Source: a virus. From it: a stretch of 56,106 bases of DNA. The position numbers and the translations under genes are program-made. Location of the stretch: positions 1 through 56,106 of IMG/VR virus record IMGVR_UViG_3300030106_002316; one strand, given 5' to 3'. Below, piece after piece: positions 11,403 to 56,106 of this stretch (the stretch's first letter is position 1; each line of letters starts with the position of its first letter). The notes below the pieces were generated by a model. That model had not been told where the DNA came from and ran no database searches. It saw only the letters and a list, made by a program, of their open reading frames with translations.

Positions 11403-11410
11403 GTGTATTC

Positions 11411-14400
11411 CTATCTCTTAGTATTGTATAAATGAATTATGAGATTAAGTATTAATCTTTTTTCAGGCGCTGCGCCTATATTTAATTTCTTCAAACTTTC
11501 TTGTGCCTGTGCTTTTTCTGCAGAATCTTTTGTATTTCGTATAGCTTCTTGCAACCCATATCTTCGAGAAGCCCTGCTCAAAACATCACCAAGTTTCAAT
11601 CCATTTTGACCGTATCTGTTCAATCTAGAAACAATTTTTGGTGTGTTTCCAAATCTTCTTAACATTGAGACTCCTCTTCCTAAAACTTTCTGTTTTTCTT
11701 CCTTGCTTAAATTATTGTAAGATGCAATATTACCTCCTATTACAGTTGTTCCGTACTGCGTTTTTTCTAATCTTTTTCTTGGTGGGAGGTTTTTTGAAAC
11801 TTGTGAAAATGTATTAGCAAATATATTTGATTCTCTTGCTAAATTAGCTGAATCTAACTTTATATCTCTTCCGTCAAGTTGAGTTATTATGCTCTGAGGA
11901 AAAACATTAGAAGCTTCGTTTGTTTGTTGTTGTGGCAATCCTGCTTCATGTCTTAATAAATTGAAATTCTTAGATTCATTATAGAGCCGTCTAAATTTAG
12001 CTCTTCCAACGGATCTACTTACTTCAAGCATTTTTCTTTCTATAAGAGAACCATTTTTTATTCTTGCATACTTAGCATCATTCTCTGCTCTCACACCTAA
12101 AAAGTTTACTATGTCTTCTACTCTATCAAAGGAACCTTCTCCAGTTTCTGATCCAGCACCGCCCCATATGGCTCTATAAAGTATAGCAAAGTCTTCGTTT
12201 GAAATAGCACGACCACCGTTTTGTCCTTGTACCATTCCCGCATAAGTGTACGTCATACTTACTTTAGTCATAGCATTTTGAGCTAATAGGTAGGCTTGAT
12301 AAGCTATTACTTGCTGCCTTAAAGCCACCTTCATATGCCTTTCTCTATCTTCTGGATTCCCTGCATTTGATGCTTTATCTAAAGCTTCTTTTGCAGCTTC
12401 TGAAGCTACAGAGATAGTAGATTTCCACTCTTTTGATTTTGCTTTTGCCCACTGTTCTACGTGGGCAAGTCTGGATTTAACAAACCCGTCATTTTCAGGA
12501 TTCGAGGATTTATAAGAATCTGCGCTAAATTTAAACTTTTCTTTTAAAAAATCTGGAGTAACTTGAGCAATAATTAATGGAGCAGCGTTAACGTAGTCTC
12601 TAATCTTTTGAAGAAAAACTACTGTTGATGATGCAGCTTCAGTTCCAATCTTAAAACCTTTTCTTCCTACTCTTTTTTCTTGTACTTTTAATGCTTCCAT
12701 TAACTCCTTATTTTTAATAAAGTTTGGATCTTCCTTCAGCAAATTAAAAAGATTTGTGGCATCCGATGAAGTTATATTTCCGTCACCACTCAAGCTCTTA
12801 AGAAGCGTATCTGTTGCACTTAACTTTAACTGATTATTTTTAAAACTACGTATATTTTCTTTAGTTTCACCAAGTTTGTTTATTGTTTCTTTGAGATCTT
12901 TTATTTTTGTATTTAAAGGTGGGTCCTTATAAATTTCCGCTTCAGTGTAGTGCATAGGTCTGCTTGTAGTTATCGCCCTCTCTCCACCCGCCATCAAAGA
13001 CACGGTAGGAGGGGGAACTATTTCAGAAAACGCTTGTTTTTGAGACAGTATTTCTACTGATTTTTCCAAAGCTTCTTGGTTTATCTTACCCTCGGATGTT
13101 TTAAATTCAAACGTCTTTTGAAGCTGCTCTTTTACAACTTCTAAATTACTATCTGTAGGATTATCTATAAATTCGTTTAGAGAAGTATATACGCTTGATA
13201 ATCTTAAAAACTCATCTAATTCTGTAGCTTTGTCAGGACTCTCAAAGTATTTCGGATCAGCTCTAAGAAGATCGTCATAATACATAAGCTTGCTCACCCT
13301 TCCATCTGTCATATCTAATGGGCTACCAAACTTTTGTACTTCCTCATTTCCAAGATAATCTACGGTTATAATAGGTTCAGAAGTTACGTTTGTCACATTA
13401 AGATCGTTTGGAGTTTGTTTTTTTGTTGTCCTCTTTATTGGTGTATTTATTCTTCTTTCTATAATCACCGTGCCTTCATCATCTCTGTGACTATTTTTTA
13501 TAGGAGAAGTCGGCATTCCTAAATTTGTCCCCCCTGTATGTATGACCGCAACCTCGCCTGACTTTATCTGCGCTAATGCGTCTTCATAATTTATTTTTCC
13601 TTTACTATTTTCAACAACCATGTTTGCTTGTTCTTCAATGGTTCTTAATGAAGAACTGGTTTTTCTTTCTGGTATTAGTACGTTTGATTTTTTATTTTCG
13701 GTAAACAAATTATGAATATTGGGCATTGACTTTTTTGTAGTAGTATTCGTTATAGATCTTTCAATCTCCCCGTTAGATGAAGTATACTCTATTCCTGTAC
13801 TTTCTAAAGCTGCCTTAACATTTAAAAAAGCCGTTTTATATCCTTTATTCTTACTAACATGCTTTATAATAGCATCTTTTTCAGCCCCTTGCTTACTTTG
13901 AATAAGACTATCAAAGTTTTGTAACATAGTATAATTCCATAGGTTGTTATTTGGTGAGCTTGAAAGAACTTTTGCCCTTTGTGTATCAGTCAAATGTGCA
14001 AATATATTAGAAGATATTAGTACGTCTGTTTTATTAGGTATCGGAGTAAACTTTACGTTTTTATCTTTGTCTGTATAAGGTATAATTTCATTATCAGGAT
14101 AAACTTTTTTAGCGTTTATTTTAAGTCGTATCTTTTCACTAGTATCCCACTTTTTTTGTAAACTTTTTAAATAATTGACGGTGGTTTTATTGTCTTTGGT
14201 CTTATTGACTTTTGAATCGCCTTGTGGACTCATAAGTTTTCTAACTTGAGCCAATATTTTTTTATTTGATGCATACGGAGATGGATTTGTCGTCCCGTTA
14301 ACGATATTTGTTGCTATCTTTTTTTGAAGAGCGTTGTCTTCTTTAGCCTCTATAGCCTGTCTTAGAGGGAGTAAATTATACTCACCACCAACTGGTTTTA

Positions 14401-14746
14401 TTCCGTAAGTACTTTCAAGAGCCTCTTGTTGCTCTTTAGAAAAAGTATTAACTGGCAATTTGTTGTTATATTGTGCGTACTGATTCATTAAAGCAAAAGT
14501 AGCATTTCCTACCTTAATGCTTTGGTTCTTTTTTGCGTTTTTTTGTGTAGCAGCTAAGTTTTTTTCTGCAATGTCTAATTGTGTTTGTCGGCCTAAAGCT
14601 GCTATGCTTTCTCTTGATTCTCTCCCCAATCTTGCCTCTTTTCGTTGAGCAGCAAGTTTAGCGGTATCAGCTTCTGCTGCTGCTCTTTCTTGTTGAGCCT
14701 GTATGAATCCTGTGGCTATCCCGCCAGCTAATGCTGAAAATCCCAT
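11411..14746 (-). CDS. Large internal virion protein
   Basis: An 1111-aa predominantly helical protein. It opens with a small Gly/Ala hydrophobic segment (GFSALAGGIATGFIQAQ) followed by an Ala/Glu/Arg-rich coiled coil (about 20-75), a layout common in podovirus internal core proteins. The rest is low in cysteine and rich in Lys, Asn and Ser. An excellent ribosome-binding site, GGAGGT, is embedded in the last codons of the upstream gene. No peptidase or muramidase motif is visible. The role is inferred from position in a block of large virion proteins. Confidence 0.75.
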   Translation of the reverse strand: MGFSALAGGIATGFIQAQQERAAAEADTAKLAAQRKEARLGRESRESIAALGRQTQLDIAEKNLAATQKNAKKNQSIKVGNATFALMNQYAQYNNKLPVNTFSKEQQEALESTYGIKPVGGEYNLLPLRQAIEAKEDNALQKKIATNIVNGTTNPSPYASNKKILAQVRKLMSPQGDSKVNKTKDNKTTVNYLKSLQKKWDTSEKIRLKINAKKVYPDNEIIPYTDKDKNVKFTPIPNKTDVLISSNIFAHLTDTQRAKVLSSSPNNNLWNYTMLQNFDSLIQSKQGAEKDAIIKHVSKNKGYKTAFLNVKAALESTGIEYTSSNGEIERSITNTTTKKSMPNIHNLFTENKKSNVLIPERKTSSSLRTIEEQANMVVENSKGKINYEDALAQIKSGEVAVIHTGGTNLGMPTSPIKNSHRDDEGTVIIERRINTPIKRTTKKQTPNDLNVTNVTSEPIITVDYLGNEEVQKFGSPLDMTDGRVSKLMYYDDLLRADPKYFESPDKATELDEFLRLSSVYTSLNEFIDNPTDSNLEVVKEQLQKTFEFKTSEGKINQEALEKSVEILSQKQAFSEIVPPPTVSLMAGGERAITTSRPMHYTEAEIYKDPPLNTKIKDLKETINKLGETKENIRSFKNNQLKLSATDTLLKSLSGDGNITSSDATNLFNLLKEDPNFIKNKELMEALKVQEKRVGRKGFKIGTEAASSTVVFLQKIRDYVNAAPLIIAQVTPDFLKEKFKFSADSYKSSNPENDGFVKSRLAHVEQWAKAKSKEWKSTISVASEAAKEALDKASNAGNPEDRERHMKVALRQQVIAYQAYLLAQNAMTKVSMTYTYAGMVQGQNGGRAISNEDFAILYRAIWGGAGSETGEGSFDRVEDIVNFLGVRAENDAKYARIKNGSLIERKMLEVSRSVGRAKFRRLYNESKNFNLLRHEAGLPQQQTNEASNVFPQSIITQLDGRDIKLDSANLARESNIFANTFSQVSKNLPPRKRLEKTQYGTTVIGGNIASYNNLSKEEKQKVLGRGVSMLRRFGNTPKIVSRLNRYGQNGLKLGDVLSRASRRYGLQEAIRNTKDSAEKAQAQESLKKLNIGAAPEKRLILNLIIHLYNTKR

Positions 14747-18499: not shown

Positions 18500-21400
18500 T
18501 CATCGACCTGCTATTATACGACCAGATGTATCTATAATGGGCGTTCCTATTGCCATGTATATTATTGTATTATTATTTACTACAAAGTTAGTACCACGCT
18601 GTTTTATACCACCTGTAACGAAATCCATATCACCCCAGTTACCTTCTGCTAAAGTTTGATCTGGCGATAGCACTTTATCCATCACATTCGTTGAACTTCT
18701 AGAGGTGTCTTCTTGACTCCAAGCACTGCCTGATGTGCCATTATCAATATTCTTAAAAAGCGCCCAAACTGGTTGTAGAGGAATACCAAGAGAATTAAGC
18801 AATGGTGCAAAAGCCCCATCAGCATTTCCGTTTCCTTCGTATGCTCCTATTGAAATAAATTGGCTAGGAGCAAAACAATAGGCTACATAGGTGTGACTTG
18901 ACTGATTTGTACTTTGAGTATCTCCAACTGAGAACACACTACTTGTTGGGGCGGTGTCGTTCCACATACCAGCTAAATCAGCAACAGCACCAGTTGTATC
19001 TAGTAAAAGATATTTATCTTCGGGCGCACTTGCATCTGAGTATTTGTGATAGATGGCCCAACTACTTGAAGAATCTCCTGCTCGTTTTTTCACGATAATC
19101 ATTTCTGGAACTACACCTAGCCCATGTCCGATAGTAGCTGCACTACCTGTTCCTGTGTAGGTTGAAATGCTTAATCCTAAAGTCGTATCAACTAATGTTG
19201 ATGTCGTATTGATAGACCCATCTTCATTAGATGATCCACTACCTGTAGCTTCCATCATCCAATTCCAAAGAACATAGCTTTCACTAGCTGTATTAACTTC
19301 AACATCTTCACCTATTTGAACTCCACCAGCTAAGAAACTTTTAAGTGTATTTTCATTCGTGACTTCCACTGTAGTATCATTACAATGTAAATCTTTCGTT
19401 ACACCACGCACACGATCAAACAACATATAATTATCTGTGGCATCTCTATTCTTAATCCAACTAAGGGCTGATATAAATTGATCTGAAGCTGTTATATTAT
19501 CTTGTGCAAGTTTAGAATATCCAGTTGGTATTGAGTAAGTAAAAGCACTTGCACCAAAATTTACTGTTGCATCATTAGCAGAACTTGCACCACCATTTCT
19601 AAAATAAAAATAATACGTGGTTCCTTTTGGTGTATTTAAATCTATTGTTGCTTTGGCAGTATCTGCTTGTCTAAATGTAACTTGATTATTATCAAGATCA
19701 AGCATGATAGCATTAACCTGATTATTAGCCATAGCAGAACCATAGCTGCCAATTAAAGTTGCATTATTTCTGTAAACAGTTCCACCATCCCATCCTATAC
19801 CATTCGCTGATTGACCTGGATATTGACTTGAATTTTTTTGATCAAAAGGCACAACACCTAACATTGGAGATCCAACAGTAGAACCACAAATTAGTTCGCA
19901 ATACCATTTTCCACTTGATACCCCGATTGTAGATACATTTGAAGAAGCACTGTTATATCCTGACATAGTTAAATTTCCGTTACTATATCCCGAATATTTA
20001 TAAGCACCGTCAAGAATAGAATAGTTTATCGTAGGTGAATCTGATGATTGAGTTACACTATTATTGTTAGTATAGTCATTAGAATTTCCAGATTCGTCAT
20101 CACCTAAGTTTCCACTATCTGCAAAGTCTAAGAAAAAAGTATTATTACCAGAACCAAATGAAAAGCTAGATAAATCTTTCGGAATCCATCTATTTGTAGT
20201 AGCATCAGTTTTTCCAAAGTTAGAAGCAGCGCTGGCAGTTCCGTCTAAGAATACGACCTGTGCCATATAACCAGTGAGAGAGATAGCATCACTACCACCT
20301 GACACATTATTTCCTATGATAATAGGTTCGCCATTATCACCAACACCCTCCAAAGCACCTGCTGAACTTCTATTATCGGTAGCCCAAGCTGTTACAAGAT
20401 TACCATTAATTGTTAACTTAACTTTATCTGTTCCAGATTCACCTGTATTATAAGCTACATGATAATGAAACCATTCACCCATGTTAGTCCATGCAGGAGT
20501 TGTTAGTCCAACTACCGTAGCTCCACTATATATATAAAATTGACCAGCAGCATTAAAACCTAATTGACCTTGTGCAGACTCATCAGAAAAGTTTGCATAT
20601 ACAGTATTTTTATCTTCACCTCTTTTTATCCATGCACTAAATGTCCATACTGTACCAGCACTTGTTCCTGTTGTTTGATTTCTACTTAATGACATATCTG
20701 TGCCATTAAATACAGCACTATTAGACACAGTAAAAGTATCACCAAATGGCTGGAGAGATCCAACTGTTTGACCAGTACCGTTTCCTTCATAGAGTATTGA
20801 CTGAAAGTATTTGTTTGTATCTGATGCTGTGCGAGTTGTAGCAGATGCTAAGTTAGTTGTTGTTAAGGCTTTAAAATCAGTCGTTGGCGTGTGGGCAAAA
20901 TCTGTTGCACCAAAGTTTACCGTAAAAGCTGACGTATCATCGTTATGAATAAACATTGATTTCCAAGTGACTCCAGCCGTTGGAGTAATACTTCCTTGGC
21001 TGGCATTGTTTTTGAAAAATTCTAGGGAGTTTCCTGCAGCGTTCCACTCCACTCGGATAACATCACCGTCAGTATAGGATGCACCATAAGATGAAGCTGT
21101 ACCGTCAATATCTTTTTGTCCAGTAGCCCTATAATAGACACCATCATCTGATAAAGATGAAGCAGATACGGTGGGATCAACCACGTTCTTTAATCCTATA
21201 TAAAATTGATCGACAACATTTGTAACAGTGACTTCCCAAACCCATTTGCCGACACTTTTAGGAAGAAATGTTCCAGAGACATAAGTGGTTCCACCACTTG
21301 ATTGCGTGGATGTAAGATTGCCATTTGATAAAGCAGTTGTTCCGCCAGACGTAAAGTGATCGAGAGGATTTAATAGTGCATATGTATTTGTAGGAGAGTT

Positions 21401-22150
21401 AGCATCTGTTGTAACTGTATTATTATTTGTAAAATCATTTCCTTCACTACTAGCATCTGTTTGAGCATTTGTAGTATTATCTAGGTAGAAACCATTCGTT
21501 CCAAATGTGAGAGCTTTAATTGTTGAAGAACTTTTAGGAGTCCAAAACAAACCAGTTGAGTCGTATTCTGCAAAACTTGTAGGATTTAATGCTGTCCCAT
21601 CTATAAAAACAAATTCAGATATGTAACCATCAAACCAGTTAGATGCTGCATTATATGCACCAACACTCATTGTAGCATCTGCGCCATTTACTGTAAGACC
21701 AGAAAGAACTATATTTCCATTGACAAATACAGTTCCTGATCCAGCAACTGATTTTACAACAAGATGATACCAACCAGTATCACGAAAAACTGCTGAAGTT
21801 GATGTGTAGCTCCCCGAATACCAAGACACGACATCAGCCGTAGTTCCATCTCCAAAGGAAAGTCCAGAATCAGTTGCGATGGTAAATACAAAATTGGCAG
21901 CAGTTGCTTCTAGTGCTGGTTCGGTGCGATATGCCCAACAGCTTGCCGTCCATGTAGTTGCTGTTCCACCCATACTTCCACGACTAAGTGATTCATTGTT
22001 TGCATTAATAAATAAAGCAGACTTACCAACAGATACGACTGCATCGGTAGCAATTGTACCAGCACCGAAACCTATGTATTGACCATAAAGATCACACAAA
22101 TGGTTAGGAAACCTCGCAGAAGGAAACATATCAGTAGATTTTTTACGCAT
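18500..22150 (-). CDS. Tail fibre with duplicated LamG-SPRY-like domains
   Basis: A 1216-aa receptor-binding-type protein. It shows a repeated two-domain unit. A concanavalin-A/LamG-like domain (about 40-210; key strings SCWAYRT, GWYHLVV, FDGYISEFVFIDG) is followed by a SPRY-like domain (about 290-435; KWVWEVTV, DGDVIRVEWN, TVNFG). A second LamG (about 490-665; FSAWIKRG, GEWFHYHVAY, GYMAQVVFLDG) and second SPRY (about 735-880; GKWYCELI, ATVNFG) follow. The C-terminal 300 residues (SALSWIKNRD, GHGLGVVPEMIIVKKR) match a domain I recall as common in marine phage fibres. It likely contacts host glycans or proteins. It abuts the next fibre gene exactly. Confidence 0.85.
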   Translation of the reverse strand: MRKKSTDMFPSARFPNHLCDLYGQYIGFGAGTIATDAVVSVGKSALFINANNESLSRGSMGGTATTWTASCWAYRTEPALEATAANFVFTIATDSGLSFGDGTTADVVSWYSGSYTSTSAVFRDTGWYHLVVKSVAGSGTVFVNGNIVLSGLTVNGADATMSVGAYNAASNWFDGYISEFVFIDGTALNPTSFAEYDSTGLFWTPKSSSTIKALTFGTNGFYLDNTTNAQTDASSEGNDFTNNNTVTTDANSPTNTYALLNPLDHFTSGGTTALSNGNLTSTQSSGGTTYVSGTFLPKSVGKWVWEVTVTNVVDQFYIGLKNVVDPTVSASSLSDDGVYYRATGQKDIDGTASSYGASYTDGDVIRVEWNAAGNSLEFFKNNASQGSITPTAGVTWKSMFIHNDDTSAFTVNFGATDFAHTPTTDFKALTTTNLASATTRTASDTNKYFQSILYEGNGTGQTVGSLQPFGDTFTVSNSAVFNGTDMSLSRNQTTGTSAGTVWTFSAWIKRGEDKNTVYANFSDESAQGQLGFNAAGQFYIYSGATVVGLTTPAWTNMGEWFHYHVAYNTGESGTDKVKLTINGNLVTAWATDNRSSAGALEGVGDNGEPIIIGNNVSGGSDAISLTGYMAQVVFLDGTASAASNFGKTDATTNRWIPKDLSSFSFGSGNNTFFLDFADSGNLGDDESGNSNDYTNNNSVTQSSDSPTINYSILDGAYKYSGYSNGNLTMSGYNSASSNVSTIGVSSGKWYCELICGSTVGSPMLGVVPFDQKNSSQYPGQSANGIGWDGGTVYRNNATLIGSYGSAMANNQVNAIMLDLDNNQVTFRQADTAKATIDLNTPKGTTYYFYFRNGGASSANDATVNFGASAFTYSIPTGYSKLAQDNITASDQFISALSWIKNRDATDNYMLFDRVRGVTKDLHCNDTTVEVTNENTLKSFLAGGVQIGEDVEVNTASESYVLWNWMMEATGSGSSNEDGSINTTSTLVDTTLGLSISTYTGTGSAATIGHGLGVVPEMIIVKKRAGDSSSSWAIYHKYSDASAPEDKYLLLDTTGAVADLAGMWNDTAPTSSVFSVGDTQSTNQSSHTYVAYCFAPSQFISIGAYEGNGNADGAFAPLLNSLGIPLQPVWALFKNIDNGTSGSAWSQEDTSRSSTNVMDKVLSPDQTLAEGNWGDMDFVTGGIKQRGTNFVVNNNTIIYMAIGTPIIDTSGRIIAGR

Positions 22151-36065: not shown

Positions 36066-36288
36066 CTTTTTGTGCCTTTATTGTATCTCTTGTTGAATCT
36101 TGTAATTTAATTAAGGTTTCCAGTAAAACCAGCTTCCCCTGCAGTCGGCGCACCTCCAACTCCGATTCCTCCACCATCAACCGATGGCGGTTTAGTTGGA
36201 TTAATTGGTTCAGGTACTCCTTTAGCCCCTCCCATACCTCCTGATTGTTGGCTAGGGGCAGTAGCATCTTCGCTTGTTCCTTGTTCAT
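36031..36288 (-). CDS. Overprinted coiled-coil protein at the portal 3' end
   Basis: An 85-aa protein in a different frame from the portal gene, overlapping its last 182 bases and the first 35 bases of the SleB-domain gene, so it fills the gap between them exactly. The sequence reads as a genuine protein (LLPLANNQEVWEGLKEYL, then VRRLQGKLVLLETLIKLQD), an amphipathic helical hairpin like small proteins I recall next to portal genes in other phages. The portal region it overlaps is Gly/Pro-rich low-complexity tail, which tolerates overprinting. An AAGGG lies ten bases before the ATG. Confidence 0.62.
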   Translation of the reverse strand: MNKEQAKMLLPLANNQEVWEGLKEYLNQLIQLNRHRLMVEESELEVRRLQGKLVLLETLIKLQDSTRDTIKAQKDGDIRGNSPTI

Positions 36289-38233
36289 TTGGCATCAACC
36301 CTTTCAGTATCTCAGCGAATATCGCTGCATCATTTATATCATTCACCAACGCATCAGGATCAATGTCTTGGCTGATGGCTAACTCACGAATGAGATTTGG
36401 TATTTTTATGAATGGTGCAAGCATAGGATTAGCAACTGTTTGGAGTAAAGCTGTTAATCGTTGTGTACGTACTTCCTTTTGTATAACAGCGCTTGTTCCT
36501 TTAGGCTTAATCTCAAGGTCGCCTATCTTCTCAGGTGTACGCTCGTTAAACTGCATATTCCACTGAAAGAATGCTTCTCCCAATGGCTTCAATAAAAAGT
36601 CATCTACGTTCTTTATGACAGTCTTTATACTTAGACCCGCACTTGACATGAGCATACTGAGGCCAGCAGCAGTACGTCCTGTGCCTGTCACGCCTGTCTG
36701 TCCGTGTACGATAGATGGTATGCCTGTCTGTTCGTCAGCTAACTGTCTCGCCTTATCGAACATCTGGACATTTTCTCCAGCAGTGCTAGGAAACTTTATG
36801 CCATTCACTGCCGTACCTGTTACGCCAGACTGCCTTCTAAATATTTTTCCTGGAAATATATCCATTGTCTGTCCAGGAACGAGTTGTGTTTCATCAATGT
36901 CAAATACCAGATTGCCAGCTAATGCTAGGTTATCTATTGCCATACGGATGTGCCCGTTCATTAGCATTTGGCTATCTTCCATGTTCTCTGCAACACCTAC
37001 ACCAAATAACTGATAGGGATTGAGTTCATAGGGAAACGCTTGGTAAGGTATGCGTGTTGGTATAAAAGGATTTGCTACAAAGCGAAGTATCTCATTTCCT
37101 GAGATCCAGATATTTACTTGTACAGCGTCATTCCCTTTCACTTCTTTCGGAAAGTCGATTCCAATTTCTTCCGCAAACTTTGCGTCAAGTGTACCCCAAT
37201 ACTCCAACACTTCAAAACGACTTCCTTGGTAATTCGGATCATCGTCATTAGAATAGAGAGTATTTTCGTAATACTTTTCTTCATAATTTGGCCCACTTTG
37301 TAAAACATTGTCAATTGCCTCTCTGTTAAAGAATGGACGGTTAGTAAGATCACGTACTTGTTCCCTATTCATACGGTGTCGTTGAATCACATAGTCAGCA
37401 TCTTCAACACTTGTCGCACTAGGATCAGGGTAGAAATCCCAACAGCTAACGGCTTCAATACGTGGAACTGTACGATCCATTGGATTATATTGCCCACCTT
37501 CCCAATTGTGTACAGTCTTGTTATAATTAAATGGGCCTTTGATTATGCCTGTTCCAAGAAGTGAACACTCAAAGATTGCGTGTCGCAGAACTGTTACAGC
37601 ATTTGTGTCTAATAGCTGATCTTGTATGCACTTCTCCATCACTCTCGCTGATTCTGCTGCAGGACTTATTTGCGGTTCACCCATACGAGCAGGGCCAGAA
37701 GCAAGGTTCGCTCCTTCATACTTCTCCGCTAACCCACCAAGCTCTGCTGGTTCTGGGCCTTGTTGCTGCATAGGAGTCGCTTGTAAGGCTCCAGGAAGTA
37801 GCTCTTGTCCGTCACCTTCAAATCCGTAAGGATCAGATACTTCTGGAGTTACAGGAACTTTAGATAAGTGTGCGAACTCATCTATACCTACTGGCATAGG
37901 CGAGGATTCAACAGAAATAGGAAACTTGTTGTTTGCGAACAGGATGTCTATGATCTGTCCGTAAGCTGCAAGAACTTTAGTCTTTGTAATCTTTATGAAT
38001 ACTTGACTGCGCTCGTTGTCTCTATACTGTGTTGTTGAGTCGTAGATACCGCGATAGTTCTTGTAAGACTTTAACCATCGTGTTTCATCGTTTCTACGAC
38101 CTGTCTCAGCATCAGAAAAACGAGCCTTAACAGTACCAATGATGCTGTTAAAGTTCTCCCTGTCTCCATCCAGATCTATAAGACCTTCGGTTTCCGCTTC
38201 TTCCGATTCATCTAAGAATGATTGATCAGCCAT
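36107..38233 (-). CDS. Portal protein
   Basis: A 708-aa portal (head-to-tail connector) protein. It has an acidic N-terminus, then RWLKSYKNYRGIYD, KITKTKVLAAYGQIIDILF, a central YQAFPYELNPYQLFGVG and MLMNGHIRMAIDNLALAGN, and a C-terminal helical region (QRLTALLQTVANP), in the order seen in long podovirus portals. The last 60 residues are Gly/Pro-rich and overlap another reading frame. Portals form the dodecameric DNA channel and dock the terminase, whose genes lie just upstream. It is followed by virion lysin genes. Confidence 0.93.
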   Translation of the reverse strand: MADQSFLDESEEAETEGLIDLDGDRENFNSIIGTVKARFSDAETGRRNDETRWLKSYKNYRGIYDSTTQYRDNERSQVFIKITKTKVLAAYGQIIDILFANNKFPISVESSPMPVGIDEFAHLSKVPVTPEVSDPYGFEGDGQELLPGALQATPMQQQGPEPAELGGLAEKYEGANLASGPARMGEPQISPAAESARVMEKCIQDQLLDTNAVTVLRHAIFECSLLGTGIIKGPFNYNKTVHNWEGGQYNPMDRTVPRIEAVSCWDFYPDPSATSVEDADYVIQRHRMNREQVRDLTNRPFFNREAIDNVLQSGPNYEEKYYENTLYSNDDDPNYQGSRFEVLEYWGTLDAKFAEEIGIDFPKEVKGNDAVQVNIWISGNEILRFVANPFIPTRIPYQAFPYELNPYQLFGVGVAENMEDSQMLMNGHIRMAIDNLALAGNLVFDIDETQLVPGQTMDIFPGKIFRRQSGVTGTAVNGIKFPSTAGENVQMFDKARQLADEQTGIPSIVHGQTGVTGTGRTAAGLSMLMSSAGLSIKTVIKNVDDFLLKPLGEAFFQWNMQFNERTPEKIGDLEIKPKGTSAVIQKEVRTQRLTALLQTVANPMLAPFIKIPNLIRELAISQDIDPDALVNDINDAAIFAEILKGLMPNEQGTSEDATAPSQQSGGMGGAKGVPEPINPTKPPSVDGGGIGVGGAPTAGEAGFTGNLN

Positions 38234-38239
38234 TTAGCT

Positions 38240-38488
38240 TTACTTTGGTTCTAGTGAATTGATGCCTTGTTGCTTGTCAGCAGCCATGATCATACCGCTT
38301 TGACCCATGTGCTTACTTCCACTTTCTGAAGGGAAATCTTCTGTAAGGGAGCCTTGGTTGATTCCTGGGCCGAACTCGTTCTTCTCACGATAGAGTTGAG
38401 CTTCGTTCACTTCGGACACAGCCCCGTGTTTAGCCATCTGACCCATTATGTAGCCAGATTTGTATGCTTGTGGATTACCGTATGGCAT
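38240..38488 (-). CDS. Small hypothetical virion-module protein
   Basis: An 82-aa polar protein (starts MPYGNPQAYKSGYIMGQMAK) between the recombinase-like gene and the portal gene. No family is recognised, and there is no membrane segment or cysteine. Tight spacing to the portal gene (6 bases) argues for co-translation. A portal-associated or head-assembly role is inference from position. Confidence 0.7.
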   Translation of the reverse strand: MPYGNPQAYKSGYIMGQMAKHGAVSEVNEAQLYREKNEFGPGINQGSLTEDFPSESGSKHMGQSGMIMAADKQQGINSLEPK

Positions 38489-38517: not shown

Positions 38518-40899
38518 TTAATTTTGTGGTCTATCTATAAAATACCCTGCATATCTTCGGTAAAAAGGAGAGTCTTCATATTCTCTTGTCGCTCTTGCAA
38601 ATCCTGTATCCATCTCTTTACCGAAAGATTCGTAAGCACTTGGAGGAGGAGCGCCATGCATTTGTGTATATTGTTGCGCTTCTTCAGCCATTGCTGCTCT
38701 TCTTTTAGCTCTCTCTCTATCTTGTAGTTCTCTTTCTATATTACGTTTTTCTTGACCTCTTAAATAAAGACTCGAAGATCCTTTTATTGGTTTTCCTGTT
38801 TCAAGAGCCGTCAGAAGTTCTTCATCTCGCACACTCTCATCTACAGTACCGCCCATAAGTGTCGGTGAAAGCGCAACATCTGCTATTGCTTCTGCAGCTT
38901 TAGCTCCTCCTGTGACACCTATACCTATCGCTGTTGTTGCTGCACCTATCGCTAGTTTTTTTGCAGCTTCTGTTATAGCTTTTCTTTCTATTAATTTAGA
39001 TTGGGCTGTTACTTTATCTAGTAGTTGTCTGTAAGACTCTAGATTTCCAGACTCACGTAAAGCTATTGCTTCATCAACTTCAGCTTGAGTCATTACTCCG
39101 TGTTTAAGTTCTTTAAGAAATTTGTACCCTCTCTCACGTACTTTTGCTTTAGGCTCTCCAAGTAATTCATCTGTTTGCGATGAAATTTCTGTAGTAGGAA
39201 TAGTAGTTTTTGTTTTGTCAGGGCCAAACCTTGTTTCTCTTTCTTCCTTTAACTCTGCTGCTTTTAGTTTGTTTTGTTCTGTTTCTATAGCTAACTCAGA
39301 AGCTGCTTTTTCAGATTGGGCTTTAGATAAAGTATTATCTGATTCTATCTTTTGATTAAGCTCTGGCGTTACAGTTTTTTCTTTTTCAGGTACTCCTTGA
39401 GAGATCTCTTCTGGTGTAGTAGGTTGTACTTGATATACTTTTGCTCCTACATTTGTCAATTCAGGTACGTTACCTAAACCAATCTTTGCTGGAATTTCGT
39501 TGAATGTATTTACACCTACAGCTTTGGCTTGCTCTCTTTGTAAAAACGTCTGTCCAACAACCTCACTCGCCGTATCCTCTCCTACCAATCCTAGCGTTAA
39601 ATAGTTTTGCCTTTGTGTAGCATCAAACAATTCAGAGGCTTCACCTAAACTGTCTCGTTGCTTACCCATCATATCATCTATTATTTGTGCTGATACTGAT
39701 GGTGGTAAACCTGATGAGTTAAGAATTAAAGACGTTGTTATTTTTCTGTTATCTTTTGCAGTAAGGTTTCTTCCCATTCCTTTTCTTACAGCACCTGTCT
39801 CATCTACTGTATCTTCAACTAAGTCTGCAAATTCGCCTTTTAAGTTTCCTTTTTCTAAAGCATCAGCTATATTAACATTAGGAAACAACTTAATAGCGTC
39901 AGGTGCATACTTTTCTTTTTTTACAAGACCAGATTGCACTGCTTCTAAAGTCTTTTTTATTCTTTCTCTTATTATGGCTTGAAGATATGGGCTTAAAGGA
40001 GTCGGTTTATATCCTTTTGCTCCTCCTACAAATTCTTCTGTTGGTATTAAAACTGTTGGATTAGTTGCATCTACGTATCCTGGAGATCTTCCTGCTCCTT
40101 TTATGTACTTTATAAACCCTTCCTTACCTCCTCTATCTGCCCATTCAGATGGAATGTACAGTCTTGTAGACACCATCTGCTCTAGTCTTTCTCCAAGAAA
40201 ACCCCACAGATTAACTACAGATCTTTCTGTATCTGCTTTAAATATTGCTTGAGGAGTATTAGCTGAAGGTCGTATATTTTGTATTACTCTTGCATGTCTT
40301 GAATAAAACTGCTCTGCTGTTGGTGATGCTTTAAGTTTAGCACCTTTACTTCTAGGAGCCTTTTTCTTTTTTAAACCTACTTGTAATAATGATAAAAAGT
40401 TAGATTCTTTACCACCAAGATCTAATACATCTTTTGTTCTGTTAAGAAGAAATCTTAAAGTTTCTCCTGCTTGTGTTCCTTTTGTTAAACCAAGAGACTC
40501 TACTCCTTTGTCTTTTGCTTCATCACTAAGAGTCAATAAAGTAGTATCTAGTCCTTTAGTAAAACCTGATTTTGTAAGTTTATTCTCTAGACCTCTTAAC
40601 GCATTGACTCTCTTAACTGATGGAGAAGCTTTGTGCGCCTCTCCTCCTGTATCGGACTGATATGGAAATAGATCTTGAAGTTTCTTTCCTAAAGGTTCTT
40701 TTATTTGTGCGCCATCAACGTTTATTCCTGTATCATACAAACGCAGGATGTTTCCTTCACGTATCGTTAGATCTTTAGGATCTTTAGCCAATAATGCTTC
40801 TCTTGAAGGAATAGAAAAATCTTCACTTGCTATTTGATCAGCAGTGAATAGTACATCTTTTATTTTTTCTAATTCTTTTAAAGGATCTGCTGTCGCCAT
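38518..40899 (-). CDS. Large protein with degenerate tyrosine-recombinase-like core
   Basis: A 793-aa protein between large terminase and portal. Residues about 195-440 follow the order of a tyrosine recombinase catalytic domain: FLGERLEQMVSTRL (box I-like, Arg238); KYIKGAGR (possible beta-hairpin Lys); PTPLSPYLQAIIRERI (matching the common vPLspeL motif); IKLFP; AKDNRKITTS (box II-like, Arg385, with the usual His as Lys); GLPPSV; MGK in place of lGH. The nucleophile position reads SELFDAT (Phe425), with Tyr433 a few residues later. The C-terminal third is coiled coil plus an Ala/Gly hydrophobic stretch. It may be an inactivated integrase reused as a virion protein. This is my own reading by eye. 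Confidence 0.5.
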   Translation of the reverse strand: MATADPLKELEKIKDVLFTADQIASEDFSIPSREALLAKDPKDLTIREGNILRLYDTGINVDGAQIKEPLGKKLQDLFPYQSDTGGEAHKASPSVKRVNALRGLENKLTKSGFTKGLDTTLLTLSDEAKDKGVESLGLTKGTQAGETLRFLLNRTKDVLDLGGKESNFLSLLQVGLKKKKAPRSKGAKLKASPTAEQFYSRHARVIQNIRPSANTPQAIFKADTERSVVNLWGFLGERLEQMVSTRLYIPSEWADRGGKEGFIKYIKGAGRSPGYVDATNPTVLIPTEEFVGGAKGYKPTPLSPYLQAIIRERIKKTLEAVQSGLVKKEKYAPDAIKLFPNVNIADALEKGNLKGEFADLVEDTVDETGAVRKGMGRNLTAKDNRKITTSLILNSSGLPPSVSAQIIDDMMGKQRDSLGEASELFDATQRQNYLTLGLVGEDTASEVVGQTFLQREQAKAVGVNTFNEIPAKIGLGNVPELTNVGAKVYQVQPTTPEEISQGVPEKEKTVTPELNQKIESDNTLSKAQSEKAASELAIETEQNKLKAAELKEERETRFGPDKTKTTIPTTEISSQTDELLGEPKAKVRERGYKFLKELKHGVMTQAEVDEAIALRESGNLESYRQLLDKVTAQSKLIERKAITEAAKKLAIGAATTAIGIGVTGGAKAAEAIADVALSPTLMGGTVDESVRDEELLTALETGKPIKGSSSLYLRGQEKRNIERELQDRERAKRRAAMAEEAQQYTQMHGAPPPSAYESFGKEMDTGFARATREYEDSPFYRRYAGYFIDRPQN

Positions 40900-40901
40900 T
40901 A

Positions 40902-42545
40902 TTAATAACCGAATACACTGTCTGCGGGTTGAAAAGTATCTTTCTTAATCTGATTGAACAGGTTATTTTGTGGTAAACCTGTCGGCCTCGTCATGCACAT
41001 ATATCGAAGTGCATCGTAAGCGTGATCTTCTGCTTTCGTATCTACGTCCTCGCTGTTCGTCTTAGATAGCGGAATCGTAGGAAGTGTTCTTACTAGGTTG
41101 GTGCAGGTCGAGAACATCTTTAGCTTTGGTTCTTCTGTTCGTTCATTTATAGCTAATCGTCTGTGCAATTCTATTTTACCTGCTATGCGGTGCTTGTCTG
41201 CTGGTATAAACCTTACACCGTTCCGTATCATTGTCTCTGCTATACTTGGGCCTGTTCCATGCTTTGACCAACAGGCTCCGTCCAGTACGGATATTTGCAT
41301 CAAAGGATCGTCTTTCTCTAGGGCGTTGATTGTTTGTGCCAGCCTCTCGCCTGTATACCCTTTAACGTAAAGTTCTCTGTAGATCCATATGACTCCATCC
41401 CAATCTAAAGCACCCCATAAGATACAGCTAGGAGCAGAATAGCCATAGTCGGCTGCTCGTATTCTGGGCCAATTATACGGTACTTCAAATGGTTCAACAA
41501 CGTGTACGGATCTTTCAAATTCTGAAAATGCTGCACCATCTGCAACATCCCAATCACCTTCCAGCAGTCTGCGTCTTTCTACTTCAGGAAGGGAGAGAAG
41601 CATTGCTTCGTATTCTCCGCTTTCCATAAGATACGGGTTATCTGTTAGTCTCGCTGGTATGAATCTACGTTGATAAAGAGGTTCTCCAGCGTGTATAGGA
41701 TGGTTAGGCCCGTATCGCAGTATCTGCTTTGATTCGATGTCTGTGGCCCAAAACGGATCATTAGGAACAGCAGGGTCTATAAACATCTTTTTAATCCACC
41801 AGCCCCCTATACCTCCAGGGTTGGCGGATGCTCTCATATATGTCTCTATGTTTGGATCTGTTGTTCTTAATCGTGAACGAAGGTAGTTCCAAACGTAAGG
41901 AGTGGGGTATTGACCAAGCTCATCTATCCCAATCCACGTAAAACTTTGTCCTTGGTAGCGTGTAACGTCACTGTCTTTATCTACGTAGCTGAATAACGCT
42001 GTCGCTCCGCTTGGAAAAGACCAAGTATTCTTAGACTCTCGAAAGACTGCTCCAGGAAATGCTTTAGGATATAGCTTCCGAGATTGATCTATAAGTTCCG
42101 TTAGCTCCGAAAGTGTACGTCTTAATAATAAAGCTCTGTGATTACCATTTGAAGCGTAACGTAACAGATCGACCAACATGGCGAAGGACTTTCCTCCACC
42201 TGCAGCACCTCCATATAGGACTTCTTTCTCTGGTGCTGCTAAAAAGTCAACTTGTGGCCCCTTATTAGGAGTAAAGATGACTTCTGTATTATCTTTTATT
42301 GATTCCCTTATATCCTTCGGAAGTGATTCTACAAATTCTTTTGTTGTTGCTCCGCCACTTCCTGCTAAACTCTGCCCTTTCTTTTTGTTTGAGACTTGGT
42401 TATTTAGCTTTTTTAGTTTATTTACTACCCTGTTTTGTTTCTTTTTGGCTGCTTTAAGCTCTCGTTGTATCTCCCGTTTCTTTTGTTCTGCGCGAGATAT
42501 ATTGTAACGACCCTTTTCTCCAGGTTTTAGCTTTGGTCGGGCCAT
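40902..42545 (-). CDS. Large terminase subunit
   Basis: A 547-aa packaging motor. Walker A is YGGAAGGGKS (residues 111-120), Walker B is FTWIGIDEL with Asp208/Glu209, followed by SANPGG (coupling motif). The RNase H-type nuclease acidic residues are in RAADYGYS, SVLDGACW and EDHAYDALRY. It translocates DNA into the prohead and cuts the concatemer. The first 60 residues are an unusual Lys/Arg/Gln coiled coil before the ATPase domain. It is three bases downstream of the recombinase-like gene's 5' neighbour spacing and closely follows a short membrane-type micro-ORF. Confidence 0.96.
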   Translation of the reverse strand: MARPKLKPGEKGRYNISRAEQKKREIQRELKAAKKKQNRVVNKLKKLNNQVSNKKKGQSLAGSGGATTKEFVESLPKDIRESIKDNTEVIFTPNKGPQVDFLAAPEKEVLYGGAAGGGKSFAMLVDLLRYASNGNHRALLLRRTLSELTELIDQSRKLYPKAFPGAVFRESKNTWSFPSGATALFSYVDKDSDVTRYQGQSFTWIGIDELGQYPTPYVWNYLRSRLRTTDPNIETYMRASANPGGIGGWWIKKMFIDPAVPNDPFWATDIESKQILRYGPNHPIHAGEPLYQRRFIPARLTDNPYLMESGEYEAMLLSLPEVERRRLLEGDWDVADGAAFSEFERSVHVVEPFEVPYNWPRIRAADYGYSAPSCILWGALDWDGVIWIYRELYVKGYTGERLAQTINALEKDDPLMQISVLDGACWSKHGTGPSIAETMIRNGVRFIPADKHRIAGKIELHRRLAINERTEEPKLKMFSTCTNLVRTLPTIPLSKTNSEDVDTKAEDHAYDALRYMCMTRPTGLPQNNLFNQIKKDTFQPADSVFGY

Positions 42546-42548
42546 CTA

Positions 42549-42623
42549 TTAGTTCATTACCTTTGCAATGTCTATAATACTTACAGTTAATACAGTGTAT
42601 GCTATAATTGTGAATATAATCAC
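42549..42623 (-). CDS. Possible 24-aa membrane micro-ORF
   Basis: A GTG-initiated frame encoding a 24-aa peptide (MIIFTIIAYTVLTVS then IIDIAKVMN), essentially one membrane span with a polar end. It fills the gap between the stop at 42629 and the terminase ATG at 42545 almost exactly. The Shine-Dalgarno signal is weak, so expression would rest on coupling. The gap could instead be mere spacer. Support is composition and fit only. Confidence 0.35.
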   Translation of the reverse strand: MIIFTIIAYTVLTVSIIDIAKVMN

Positions 42624-42628
42624 TTGAT

Positions 42629-42907
42629 TTAGGACTTTCGTGATATACGTTTTATGTGTTTAGCTACCTTCTTTGACTGATTGGCGTGTAGCTTACTTGC
42701 TTTTTTGAGTTGTGCAGGTATCTTCTTAACACTTGCAGATACTTTTACTTTACCGCCTTTGTTCATCTTAGCTGTTTTAGCTGAACGTTTAAAGTTAGCA
42801 GCAGTAGGTGCGCCTTTAGCTCCAACCTTACGCATCTTCTCACCACTTCCTGCAGCGATACGTTTTCTCTTTGCGTGTATATTAGCGTATAATCCTCTTT
42901 TAGCCAT
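42629..42907 (-). CDS. Small basic conserved phage protein
   Basis: A 92-aa very basic protein beginning MAKRGLYANIHAKRKRI followed by AAGSGEKMRK and KGAPTAANFKRSAKTA. This N-terminal block is one I recall from many podoviruses near packaging genes. The C-terminal half includes MNKGGKVKVS. Nucleic-acid binding is likely from the charge, and a virion or packaging role is inferred from position between small and large terminase genes. Exact function is unknown. Confidence 0.8.
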   Translation of the reverse strand: MAKRGLYANIHAKRKRIAAGSGEKMRKVGAKGAPTAANFKRSAKTAKMNKGGKVKVSASVKKIPAQLKKASKLHANQSKKVAKHIKRISRKS

Positions 42908-42909
42908 AT

Positions 42910-43392
42910 CTAATTATCCATAAACTTTGCTTTACGAACACCGCCACCGTTGGCGTAGTTCTTTACTGTGCCACCAGAAGCACGTTGTATGCCTTCCTTT
43001 TTAGCCCATTCTTCATTTCTTTTTCTAACTGCTTCATCTTCTCCTTTATTCAGTGTGGAAGGAGATAGAGCTGTTTCTATGGCTGCAAGATAAGGACTAC
43101 CAAGTGCTTTAAGACCAAATTTAGCAGCAGTTTTAATTGCTTTGTTCCTTGCAAGTTTCTTTGCCATAGCCTTATCAGTTTCTTTTTCGGCTAAAGATAT
43201 GGCATGTTTCTTAGACCGTTCCATGTGCTTATCAGTTGCAGGTTTACGACCCCTTATCTTTTGACTCTTGTTAAATTCTTTAGCAGCTTTCTTACTCTCT
43301 TTGACAGCAGTTTTCTTTTTCTTTTCTAGCAGCTTATTATACTTTTTCTTTTGTCTTGCAGTTAATTCGTCATAATTTATGGTTTCAGCCAT
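42910..43392 (-). CDS. Lys-rich packaging-module protein
   Basis: A 160-aa protein that is strongly basic and helical for the first 100 residues, then has a short hydrophobic stretch (FGLKALGSPYLAAIETAL) and a C-terminal tail ASGGTVKNYANGGGVRKAKF. The tail carries the GG-x-V element shared with other virion-module proteins. It lies between the small terminase and the MAKRG-type gene with gaps of zero to two bases. Function is unknown; DNA binding is plausible. Confidence 0.72.
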   Translation of the reverse strand: MAETINYDELTARQKKKYNKLLEKKKKTAVKESKKAAKEFNKSQKIRGRKPATDKHMERSKKHAISLAEKETDKAMAKKLARNKAIKTAAKFGLKALGSPYLAAIETALSPSTLNKGEDEAVRKRNEEWAKKEGIQRASGGTVKNYANGGGVRKAKFMDN

Positions 43393-44197: not shown

Positions 44198-44233
44198 TTT
44201 GTTATTTTGGGGAGATGTTTGCTACCTACGCAA
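44127..44233. repeat. Inverted repeat bracketing a start codon
   Basis: TTGCGTAGGTA at 44127-44137 and its perfect complement TACCTACGCAA at 44223-44233 flank the 5' end of the 43817-44197 gene. The CCTACGCAAT part occurs again at 44831-44840. In the leftward mRNA the two arms would pair across the translation start. They could be a translational control element or DNA sites bound by the small terminase or a repressor. Confidence 0.6.
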
Positions 44234-44344
44234 TCTCTAAAAATCTCGTTTAGCAGGAGATAGAAGTAATGTTCCTTATCCCAGATTTGTATGAACTTTA
44301 AGGTTTGTGTGAATATAGACTCTTTTCTACTCGTGCCACCTTCT

Positions 44345-44372
44345 ATTATACACCATATATCAATGTTGTCAA
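44345..44372 (-). promoter_or_regulatory. Leftward sigma-70-type promoter, perfect consensus
   Basis: On the minus strand this reads TTGACA, 16 bases, TATAAT. It is preceded by TTTAC and surrounded by GGTGTATAATAG, features shared exactly with the opposing promoter at 44412-44439. It should drive the terminase and virion operon, with a leader of roughly 140 nt before the first start codon at 44197. An A/T-rich tract upstream could act as an UP element. Confidence 0.85.
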
Positions 44373-44411
44373 GTAAATAATGCTCTAATATGAAAAAAAA
44401 TTATTTTTTAC

Positions 44412-44439
44412 TTGACAGACTCGTAATACGGTGTATAAT
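44412..44439 (+). promoter_or_regulatory. Rightward sigma-70-type promoter, perfect consensus
   Basis: TTGACA at 44412-44417 and TATAAT at 44434-44439 are separated by 16 bases, with an A8-TT-A-T6 tract just upstream as a likely UP element. It points into about 500 bp without a gene and then against the leftward early operon, so its product is either a non-coding RNA, an antisense RNA, or a primer/activating transcript for replication. The 10-bp direct repeat covering the -10 box could be an operator. Confidence 0.85.
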
Positions 44440-44903
44440 AGTGTATAACACTGCCGAGGGGTGCAATAGCAATACTATATAGTACTATATAGAACTGTGC
44501 TGCACTGTGATGAACTACGAGTCCACTCGCACCAAAAGGTTAACAAGACCAGAATAGCTTCAAAAAAATAAAATTAATAGGGGCCGTGAGTATACTATTA
44601 CGGGGGGGCGTAGTGGCCCATGCGCGGGTGTTCCTATTTTGTCCCGCACGAAACATCGCCGATCATTTAGCAATATTGATTATATAAGGAAAACCGCCAA
44701 AGCACTATTTATCCTTATTTTCTGCATTATTTCTTCACGTACACATACATGTGAGTAATCTTGAACTGACATTTTGTATTTATAGTTTTAAAAGTAGTGT
44801 ATAGGGGGCAGGGTGGCGCACATTTCAAACCCTACGCAATAACCCTACTATCCAGACATTACAAAGCTTTAAAGAGTTATGCGAGTTATTACAGCCTACA
44901 CAT

Positions 44904-44939
44904 AAAAAGAACCCTAGCATTCTATAAAGAACACTAGGG
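44904..44939 (-). terminator. Leftward intrinsic terminator of the early operon
   Basis: On the minus strand a hairpin with CCCTAG/CTAGGG (44912-44917 with 44934-44939), an inner TTCT/AGAA pairing and an ATAA-type loop is followed by TTCTTTTT. It lies 25 bp after the stop of the last small leftward gene (44965). It separates the small-gene operon from the control region and virion operon. Confidence 0.85.
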
Positions 44940-44964
44940 CCAAGTTAACAGGGAGGAATATACC

Positions 44965-47372: not shown

Positions 47373-47752
47373 GATTTTGCTCCTTCCTCAATAAAAAAAA
47401 CCTTATCGACCATATCTTGTGCTGTCTCCTCGTTAGGGGCCGACAATTTTGTCTCGTCATCACTTTCAGGTCTGACAAGTTTATAGCTGACAATTTTATG
47501 GCTGACATTTAATTGGTTGACAAATTCCATGTTGGCTATCTGTATTGCATCCTTATAATCTTCCGCACAATCCCAAATACAAGAATAGTTTGTTACAATT
47601 TCCTCCGTCACTCCTGTCATCTCACAGTCCACGCAGTCACGTTCTGTGATATGCGCCCACTGTCCACTATCATCAACGCCATGCTCAGTAACCTCTTGCA
47701 TTCCAGTACCATTACATTCAGTGCAAGCCCACGTTACTTGAAAATCAGGCAT
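47369..47752 (-). CDS. Protein with DnaJ-type zinc motif
   Basis: A 127-aa protein. Its N-terminus contains CTECNGTGM (Cys10, Cys13) and CVDCEMTG (Cys40, Cys43), the CxxCxGxG pattern of the DnaJ central zinc domain, here reduced to two half-sites. The J domain and other DnaJ parts are absent. The ATG at 47752 follows GGAGGAGGTA directly; the upstream TTG is not needed. The C-terminal part encodes short repeats (NVSHK-IVSYK-LVRPE) produced by the 15-bp DNA repeat array at 47439-47522. HMO-2011-type phages carry a partial DnaJ domain inside DNA polymerase; here it is separate. Confidence 0.72.
   Translation of the reverse strand: MPDFQVTWACTECNGTGMQEVTEHGVDDSGQWAHITERDCVDCEMTGVTEEIVTNYSCIWDCAEDYKDAIQIANMEFVNQLNVSHKIVSYKLVRPESDDETKLSAPNEETAQDMVDKVFFIEEGAKS
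47439..47522. repeat. 15-bp-period repeat array, copy A
   Basis: On the + strand, variants of GCTGACA start at 47471 (TCTGACA), 47486, 47501 and 47516 (GTTGACA), exactly 15 bp apart, each followed by A/T-rich bases (AAGTTTA, ATTTTA, TTTAAT). A further related GCCGACAATTTT lies at 47439, 32 bp before the first. The array lies inside the 47369-47752 gene. The same core and spacing occur at 48950-49017. It is iteron-like. Confidence 0.75.
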
Positions 47753-48788: not shown

Positions 48789-49018
48789 ACTTTATTATTG
48801 CAGTCTTGTGTTCCATGCTCCTGCAACAGAAGATTGATTTCTTCCTCCGAAGCAACTCCAATGTAATATCTCAAGCGATCTTCAAATGCAAAGTTCATCA
48901 GGGTTTGAAGATCCCAACTGTCCACTAAGTTATCAACAGCATTTTCAATGCTGACAATTTTATTCGCTGACAATTTATTCGCTGACATTTTCATCGCTGA
49001 CATTTTCATCGCTGACAT
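48785..49018 (-). CDS. Small acidic early protein with repeat-encoded N-terminus
   Basis: A 77-aa protein. Its N-terminus (MSAMKMSAMKMSANKLSANK) is encoded by the 15-bp repeat array at 48950-49017 and offers several in-frame ATGs (49018, 49009, 49003, 48994, 48988); I use the first. The remaining 55 residues (IVSIENAVDNLVDSWDLQ onward) look like a normal acidic helical protein. It overlaps the upstream gene by 44 bases in another frame. Function is unknown. Confidence 0.6.
   Translation of the reverse strand: MSAMKMSAMKMSANKLSANKIVSIENAVDNLVDSWDLQTLMNFAFEDRLRYYIGVASEEEINLLLQEHGTQDCNNKV
48950..49017. repeat. 15-bp-period repeat array, copy B
   Basis: Five perfect GCTGACA cores on the + strand at 48950, 48966, 48981, 48996 and 49011 (spacings 16, 15, 15, 15 bp), each followed by ATTT or AATTT and most preceded by ATTC or CATC. 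The array straddles two overlapping genes and encodes NVSDE repeats in one frame and MSAMK repeats in the other. It matches array A at 47439-47522 in core and spacing. Confidence 0.9.
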
Positions 49019-55396: not shown

Positions 55397-56106
55397 AACA
55401 CATCAACCTTGTGATGACTGCGGGAGCAGTGATGCACTTGCAGTGAACGATGATGGAAGCTCGTTTTGCTTCTCTTGTGAAAGACATCGTAAATCTACGG
55501 ATGAACTCTTATTAGATGACGAAGAAGATGAAGAAGAAACAATGAAGCATAATCCCCGACACGCTTCTCATCTTAATGAAGGCGAGTTTATGGATTTGCC
55601 TGAACGTGGTATAACGAAAGAAACTTGTGAGGCTTACAATGTAACTATTGCGCCTAATGGTTATAAGCATTACTACCCTTATTATAATGAAGATAATGAG
55701 TTAATAGCGCAGAAACATAGGATATACACAAGCGACAATCAGAAAACATTTCAAACGATGGGAGATTGGGATCAAACTACGTTGTTTGGACAATCCATAT
55801 GCAGGAAAGGCGGTAAATACATTACATTATGCGAAGGCGAACTTGACGCTCTCGCTGCATATCAAATGCAAGGCTCCAAGTGGCCTGTTGTTTCTATAAA
55901 GAATGGTGCTGGAAATGCTGTTAAAGATGTACAAAGAGCTTTCGAGTTTCTCACTTCATATGATAACATTGTTGTATGTTTTGACAATGATAAGGCTGGT
56001 AAAAAAGCTGCTAAGAAAGTTGCTGAATTATTATCACCTAAAGCCAAGGTGATGCACCTTAACTTGAAAGATGCTAACGAGTATCTTATACAAGATAAGA
56101 TTGAGA
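55383..56106 (+). CDS. Primase-helicase, T7 gp4-like (5' part; continues at base 1)
   Basis: This is the start of the primase-helicase. Residues 10-32 form the zinc-binding primase domain (CDDC and CFSC, Cys10, 13, 29, 32) that recognises priming sites. The TOPRIM part has LCEGELDA (Glu151/153) and VCFDNDKAGKKAA (Asp201, Asp203). The frame is open to the end of the window and continues in phase at base 3 of the window, so the two pieces form one 555-aa protein. The start ATG is 14 bases inside the membrane-protein gene. Confidence 0.95.
   Translation, partial: MGYLKTHQPCDDCGSSDALAVNDDGSSFCFSCERHRKSTDELLLDDEEDEEETMKHNPRHASHLNEGEFMDLPERGITKETCEAYNVTIAPNGYKHYYPYYNEDNELIAQKHRIYTSDNQKTFQTMGDWDQTTLFGQSICRKGGKYITLCEGELDALAAYQMQGSKWPVVSIKNGAGNAVKDVQRAFEFLTSYDNIVVCFDNDKAGKKAAKKVAELLSPKAKVMHLNLKDANEYLIQDKIE
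56008..56105. repeat. Terminal overlap, right copy
   Basis: This stretch is identical to 1-98 and shows that the window closes into a circle of about 56,007 bp. See the left copy for interpretation. Confidence 0.95.

Follow-up and report, generated by a model that had tools for sequence, protein, structure and literature searches.

Locus and genome context

The window, by which we mean the whole stretch of DNA analysed here (56,106 nucleotides, IMG/VR record IMGVR_UViG_3300030106_002316), has the appearance of an entire HMO-2011-type podovirus genome. Positions 1-98 and 56008-56105 are identical (98 nt, stopping just short of the final base), and this exact end overlap closes the record into a circle of about 56,007 bp, despite its linear class. 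Kinship with HMO-2011-type phages is seen in a homologous large terminase (TerL), a homologous portal and the gene order: the window portal is 48-52% identical to those of HMO-2011 and HTVC033P and TerL is 50-55% identical, and both proteins stand at ~50% identity to HMO-2011, CRP and HTVC phages. The late operon runs TerS, TerL, the gene under study, an 82-aa ORF, portal and hydrolase to the capsid protein, on a single strand throughout. An earlier note on this DNA had placed a 793-aa protein between TerL and portal without giving a strand. Its ORF coordinates are exact and the gene lies on the minus strand, starting 2 nt past the TerL stop; the 82-aa ORF also intervenes before the portal.

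40902-42545, minus strand: large terminase (phrog_979 match 1e-59), 2 nt upstream of the recombinase gene
38518-40899, minus strand: 793-aa protein with N-terminal helical domain, tyrosine recombinase domain, coiled-coil-like linker and hydrophobic C-terminal module
38240-38488, minus strand: conserved 82-aa ORF between recombinase and portal (median identity 100% across pairs whose TerLs agree at 97% or more)
36107-38233, minus strand: portal of SU10/HMO-2011 type (SU10_portal match 5e-28)

A tyrosine recombinase domain behind the large terminase

Searched alone, the window protein matched nothing significantly in Pfam, PHROGs, PDB sequences, viral_contigs or 50,697 phage records (tblastn), and it does not match PF00589 at the curated cut-off. 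After these direct searches, relatives were gathered by synteny via TerL; this search returned 80 IMG/VR loci, later enlarged, most of which have a protein of about 650-1030 aa in the slot downstream of TerL. Taken singly, 13 of 44 slot proteins matched PF00589 (best 1.5e-9) and 10 of the 44 matched the phrog_1 integrase family, while the member from contig G002 passed the curated PF00589 cut-off at 41.2 bits. A joint family profile from the full-length alignment matched IntI4 at 1.7e-5. When the profile was restricted to the domain and further members were added (including L154, L127 and L132), IntI4 was matched at 1.1e-8; next came Tn1549 Int, XerC-like, S. aureus integrase, XerH, XerD and XerA.

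As a guard against circularity, we used a jackknife profile that left out the window, its nearest relative L017, and L154, L127 and L132. With the HMMER filters disabled and Z = 10,000, it matched the window over residues 99-475 (E = 9e-13); under the default filters it missed the window. Aligning the window plus L017 against the remaining family with hhalign gave a probability of 99.2% and paired Arg238, Arg385, GK412-413 and Tyr433 with the family's GxR, LRK, GH and Tyr. An AlphaFold2 model of the recombinase segment reached pLDDT 79 and pTM 0.77, support that is partly dependent because family relatives are present in its input alignment. With residues 90-475 of the model, Foldseek against the PDB returned S. 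aureus integrase 3nkh (probability 0.99, TM 0.54), XerA 5hxy (0.84) and Cre 1f44 (0.80), and nothing unrelated above 0.1 probability; the E-values were modest (0.04-0.2). The full-length model again gave tyrosine recombinases as the top structures, with lower scores.

The earlier note had proposed an integrase-type domain within a packaging-operon protein and a Foldseek comparison as a check. That comparison put tyrosine recombinase structures at the top, and family profile, Foldseek and hhalign agree, so the window protein almost certainly holds a true tyrosine recombinase domain. The protein was also free of MuF, portal-fusion and known polyvalent domains in Pfam and PHROGs. Its parts are as follows.

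40372-40623, minus strand: residues 93-176, helical, ahead of the catalytic domain (model secondary structure; N-terminal region conserved in A4)
39475-40323, minus strand: residues 193-475, catalytic (tyrosine recombinase) domain (Foldseek and jackknife HMM)
39226-39366, minus strand: residues 512-558, long helix forming a coiled-coil-like linker (model)
38860-38967, minus strand: residues 645-680, hydrophobic segment rich in Gly/Ala, flanked N-terminally by basic residues (family hydrophobicity comparison)
38542-38553, minus strand: YAGY, a C-terminal YxGF-type motif (such a motif lies in the last 45 aa of 25/45 members)

Judging by its position, the segment of residues 93-176 may be a core-binding (SAM-like) domain. 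Towards the other end, the most hydrophobic stretch falls within the last 260 aa in 39/45 members, as a Gly/Ala-rich segment near the C-terminus; its hydrophobicity is moderate (1.4 Kyte-Doolittle is reached in 17/45 members) and it is poorly modelled. We regard it as a putative, membrane-active-looking segment.

An altered active site

All of the motifs quoted in the earlier note are present: GERLEQM with Arg238, PTPLSPYL (299-306), LFP (338-340), DNRK with Arg385, GLPPSV (397-402), MGK with Lys413, Phe425 and Tyr433. They also stand above chance, as R238, F339, R385 and Y433 are, together with K295, the columns that reach at least 90% conservation across 53 aligned members, at a mean column identity of 13%. 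Lys295 adjoins the PTPLSPYL strand and fits the catalytic Lys-beta.

40186-40188, minus strand: Arg238, catalytic Arg I (R in 52/53)
40015-40017, minus strand: Lys295, catalytic Lys-beta (K in 53/53)
39754-39756, minus strand: Lys382, His position of HxxR (K16, G10, S10, Q6, N5 in 53; His absent among the residues listed)
39745-39747, minus strand: Arg385, catalytic Arg II (R in 51/53)
39661-39663, minus strand: Lys413, His/Trp III position, lGH (family His 40, Arg 9, Lys 2, the window among the Lys)
39601-39603, minus strand: Tyr433, presumed nucleophile (Y in 51/51; hhalign column; the sole Tyr between 413 and 445)

Lysine at the usual histidine positions, as the note had read it, is what we find: the window has Lys382 at His II (HxxR) and Lys413 at His/Trp III. 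These are the two positions of the catalytic set that vary within the tyrosine recombinase superfamily. In the main slot family the HxxR His is replaced (by Lys, Gly, Ser, Gln or Asn), and it is kept in divergent slot proteins such as L154; the third position is His in 40/51 family members. L154:3479-6403 is a 974-aa slot protein with a textbook domain (R, K, HxxR, LGH, Y) near its N-terminus. We therefore count the window protein, on its fold and its Arg-Lys-Arg-Tyr set, as a divergent, non-canonical member of the superfamily.

The note's reading of the nucleophile does not stand. It had assigned the nucleophile position to Phe425, a column that is gappy and unconserved in the family alignment. 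The homologue alignment it had suggested for choosing between the two residues shows the conserved tyrosine column to be Tyr433. Nor is the tyrosine shifted in kind: Tyr433 occupies the family nucleophile column, behind a loop longer than that in Xer or Int. This loop (416-441) is modelled at low confidence (pLDDT <50).

The note had also suggested that the enzyme was perhaps inactivated. A catalytically dead recombinase fold, retained for DNA binding only, would account for the missing HxxR His and for Lys in place of His at position III in the window, and these substitutions could alter activity. However, Arg, Lys, Arg and Tyr are near-invariant at 13% family identity, and DNA binding alone would be insufficient to explain a Tyr retained in 51/51 members, making a dead fold very improbable. 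The window has the full Arg-Lys-Arg-Tyr set, and in allele pairs the recombinase domain shows a dN/dS of 0.14-0.41, below that of the linker and C-terminus in most pairs, a pattern by which the domain is judged to be under purifying selection. Because the four residues are near-invariant, Tyr433 is conserved and domain dN/dS is this low, the enzyme probably retains activity, with its general acid/base set modified.

What fills the slot after TerL

Among 95 distinct proteins directly after TerL, an automatic test assigned a recombinase domain to 63, portal to 13 and something else to 19. The count of 63/95 is a lower bound, and inspection by hand adds L051 and L132/L133. Every slot protein whose TerL is more than ~74% identical to the window's carries the domain, and the recombinase gene is, by gene content, near-universal in the window's clade. 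Among the annotated isolates examined, HMO-2011, HTVC115P and HTVC033P have a slot without a large protein, while just ahead of the portal an SGNH hydrolase is found in phiM6 and a BNR-repeat protein in RHph_N3_13. Sister lineages L150, L072, L120, L128, L135 and L145 carry unrelated large proteins in the slot, and that of L150 has a similar hydrophobic C-terminal segment and no recombinase domain.

A short motif, [LIV]xxQMxxL, occurs in 20/83 slot proteins against 0.8 expected, relatives being non-independent counts. It is found in recombinase-bearing and unrelated slot proteins, at either end or internally, and is absent from the window protein and from all TerL, TerS and portal proteins examined; a docking or loading signal is a possible function. 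Carriers include L001, L016, L127, L128, L132 and L042, and the motif is also seen in a few other large late proteins (G005 9518-14065 and 41202-43154).

These features raise the prospect that the protein is injected to work as an effector on the DNA of the host or of competitors; a variable recombinase part would then be coupled, much as in MuF and polyvalent proteins, to a delivery part that can be swapped. Slot proteins resemble such injected proteins in being large, multi-domain and coded near terminase and portal, with variable and constant modules. The shuffling of domain and C-terminus described below would fit this, as would unrelated slot proteins in sister lineages, the C-terminal segment retained in L150 and the motif common to both kinds of slot protein. 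However, no homology between MuF or polyvalent proteins and the slot protein was found, and a survey of polyvalent proteins uses neither "integrase" nor "recombinase" (PMC5512222). In addition, no immunity gene was recognised, the window protein lacks the motif, and near-universal presence in a clade is unlike typical cargo. We consider such an effector improbable.

Whole-gene replacement and module shuffling

Comparison of the window with its relative L001 shows DNA that is 98.8% identical through TerL, a slot gene that cannot be aligned, and ~95% identity resuming 4 nt past its stop. The pattern is general: in 33 of the 46 locus pairs whose TerLs agree at 97% or more, identity of the recombinase domain falls below 30%, whereas the medians in the same pairs are 95% for portal, 97% for TerS and 100% for the 82-aa protein. 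The recombinase protein is thus the least conserved of the packaging module. Within it, L057 and L074 share a domain at only 22% and a C-terminus at 85%, L074 and L075 have domains 97% and linkers 35% identical, and L007 and L026 have domains 89% and C-termini 33% identical; from these alignments, the C-terminal module is exchanged independently of the recombinase domain.

Integrase alleles are commonly exchanged between temperate phages, and allele swapping would also be expected of a lysogeny integrase that had moved into the late operon and worked inside the cell in the ordinary way, with the C-terminal extension incidental. There is a precedent within the same phage group: HMO-2011-type phages of subgroups I and III encode a tyrosine integrase, and in CRP-3 a tRNA-Met gene serves as the integration site (PMC9038755, PMC6918029). 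No other integrase was found among the window genes. But the known integrases (CRP-1, CRP-2, CRP-3, HMO-2011), while also tyrosine recombinases, have been described only upstream of the replication module and not in this slot (PMC9038755, PMC6918029), and subgroups IV-X have been termed free of lysogeny genes (PMC9038755). No repressor was recognised. The swap comprises exactly the ORF and therefore leaves no room for a co-swapped attP alongside, which speaks against a standard int-attP cassette, and late expression would be mistimed for integration unless the protein were carried in. A TerL search for prophages in host genomes gave six distant matches, none of them an integrated relative of the window's clade, although absence from the genomes sampled is weak evidence. 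A relocated lysogeny integrase is therefore unlikely, and the wholesale replacement of the gene suggests a DNA-cutting enzyme that would travel with the virus particle rather than the usual integrase.

A further candidate is a packaging or maturation factor that would bind or resolve branched concatemers, or sit at the DNA end in the head. The model here is baculovirus VLF-1, a member of the tyrosine recombinase superfamily that occurs at nucleocapsid ends in virions and takes part in processing and packaging the DNA (PMC6669607, PMC11654684). The position between terminase and portal, and the occurrence of the domain in almost every slot protein of the window's clade, would be consistent with this function. 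Yet a core packaging part should co-evolve with terminase and portal, and the hypervariability of the recombinase protein argues against a core packaging role; in addition, sister lineages and isolates package DNA without it. VLF-1 also differs in belonging to another virus group and in being a conserved core protein, whereas the slot protein is hypervariable. On balance we find a VLF-1-like factor rather unlikely.

Other hypervariable genes

The recombinase gene is not alone in its variability. A gene-by-gene comparison of the window with G008 (the 38-kb contig of L001) shows replication and terminase genes that are mostly 90-100% identical; besides the recombinase, the tail-fibre-like protein (28%), the 1692-aa protein (38%) and the 1111-aa protein (31%) stand out as divergent, and the small neighbours of the divergent late genes differ strongly as well.

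6324-11402 and 11411-14746: a pair of giant late proteins, 1692 aa and 1111 aa long, no clear family match
18500-22150: tail-fibre-like protein, 1216 aa, DUF7483/SPRY, hypervariable between otherwise near-identical phages

The giant late genes sit between the tail-fibre-like gene and the holin. By analogy with T7-like podoviruses, this is where one would expect internal ejection proteins.

A possible role at DNA entry

We tentatively favour the reading that the late-made recombinase is virion cargo acting on DNA at entry, in circularisation or integration. Three features point this way: it is made late with the packaging genes, it varies together with likely entry proteins, and it bears a hydrophobic tail module. 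Because the gene is read in the late packaging operon, directly behind the large terminase, the enzyme would be made during head filling. The C-terminal module would place it in the particle beside other entry proteins, and it would enter the next cell together with the DNA. There it would form a 3'-phosphotyrosine intermediate and recombine DNA at entry, so that the incoming genome would be closed into a circle or joined to a chromosomal site. Virion location, injection, activity and substrate are what we infer from this arrangement. The earlier note had likewise suggested a virion or packaging factor, possibly acting at DNA ends, for which the late operon, the hydrophobic C-terminal segment and a hypervariability shared with the tail fibre and giant late proteins would offer only indirect support. 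A broader proposal, conceivable though doubtful, is that the slot proteins form a family of injected virion recombinases of marine phages, in which recombinase and delivery modules would be shuffled like those of polymorphic effectors, giving differing specificity among near-identical phages.

Compared with the PF00589 superfamily (XerC/D/H, IntI4, Tn1549 Int, S. aureus integrase), the window protein shares the fold of residues 90-475 and the order Arg I, Lys-beta, Arg II, lGH-like motif and Tyr. Unlike these enzymes, the main slot family is without the HxxR His and the window has a longer pre-Tyr loop, and the slot family has a C-terminal extension of a few hundred residues, lies in the packaging operon and is swapped as a whole gene. 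Recombinases as divergent as this family escape normal annotation; tblastn of a typical slot protein, L010, against 50,697 phage records gave no match. In the literature searched, with subscription papers and preprints outside its coverage, we found no earlier report of the family. According to a published account, no tyrosine recombinase outside baculo-like viruses has been linked to packaging or to the formation of virions (PMC11654684). If our reading holds, a tyrosine recombinase would lie in the packaging module of a tailed phage, a role so far reported only for baculovirus VLF-1 (PMC11654684). It would then be asked why phages retain the gene yet vary its sequence faster than all its neighbours, and the closing or joining of marine podovirus genomes on entry would become testable.

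Target-site searches and repeats

Searches for a recombination site found no long palindrome except a promoter-like inverted repeat, no allele-specific repeat and no enrichment of tRNA 3' ends within the genes. The inverted repeat (44343-44441, within noncoding 44198-44964) has 39-nt arms at 79% and two diverging sigma70-like promoters (TTGACA, TATAAT), one towards the late operon and the other against the minus-strand genes. As a recombinase target it was set aside: the stretch it lies in is also conserved in G008, whose allele differs, so the repeat is not allele-specific. A protelomerase (telomere resolvase) is ruled out by the circular record and the lack of a long perfect palindrome, and an invertible tail-fibre switch was rejected since no long inverted repeats flank the tail-fibre gene.

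An attP within the gene at a tRNA end, as in SSV1, was likewise discarded (T-loop motif 4 observed vs 3.9 expected). A perfect T-arm-like sequence, GCAGGTTCAAATCCTGC, lies at 7504-7520 inside the late 1692-aa gene; among seven relatives it has a counterpart only in G004, where it is part of a real tRNA-Arg, and its presence in the window is probably due to chance. Finally, 15-nt tandem repeats with a common GCTGAC form two clusters, 47477-47521 and 48957-49016, 1.5 kb apart.
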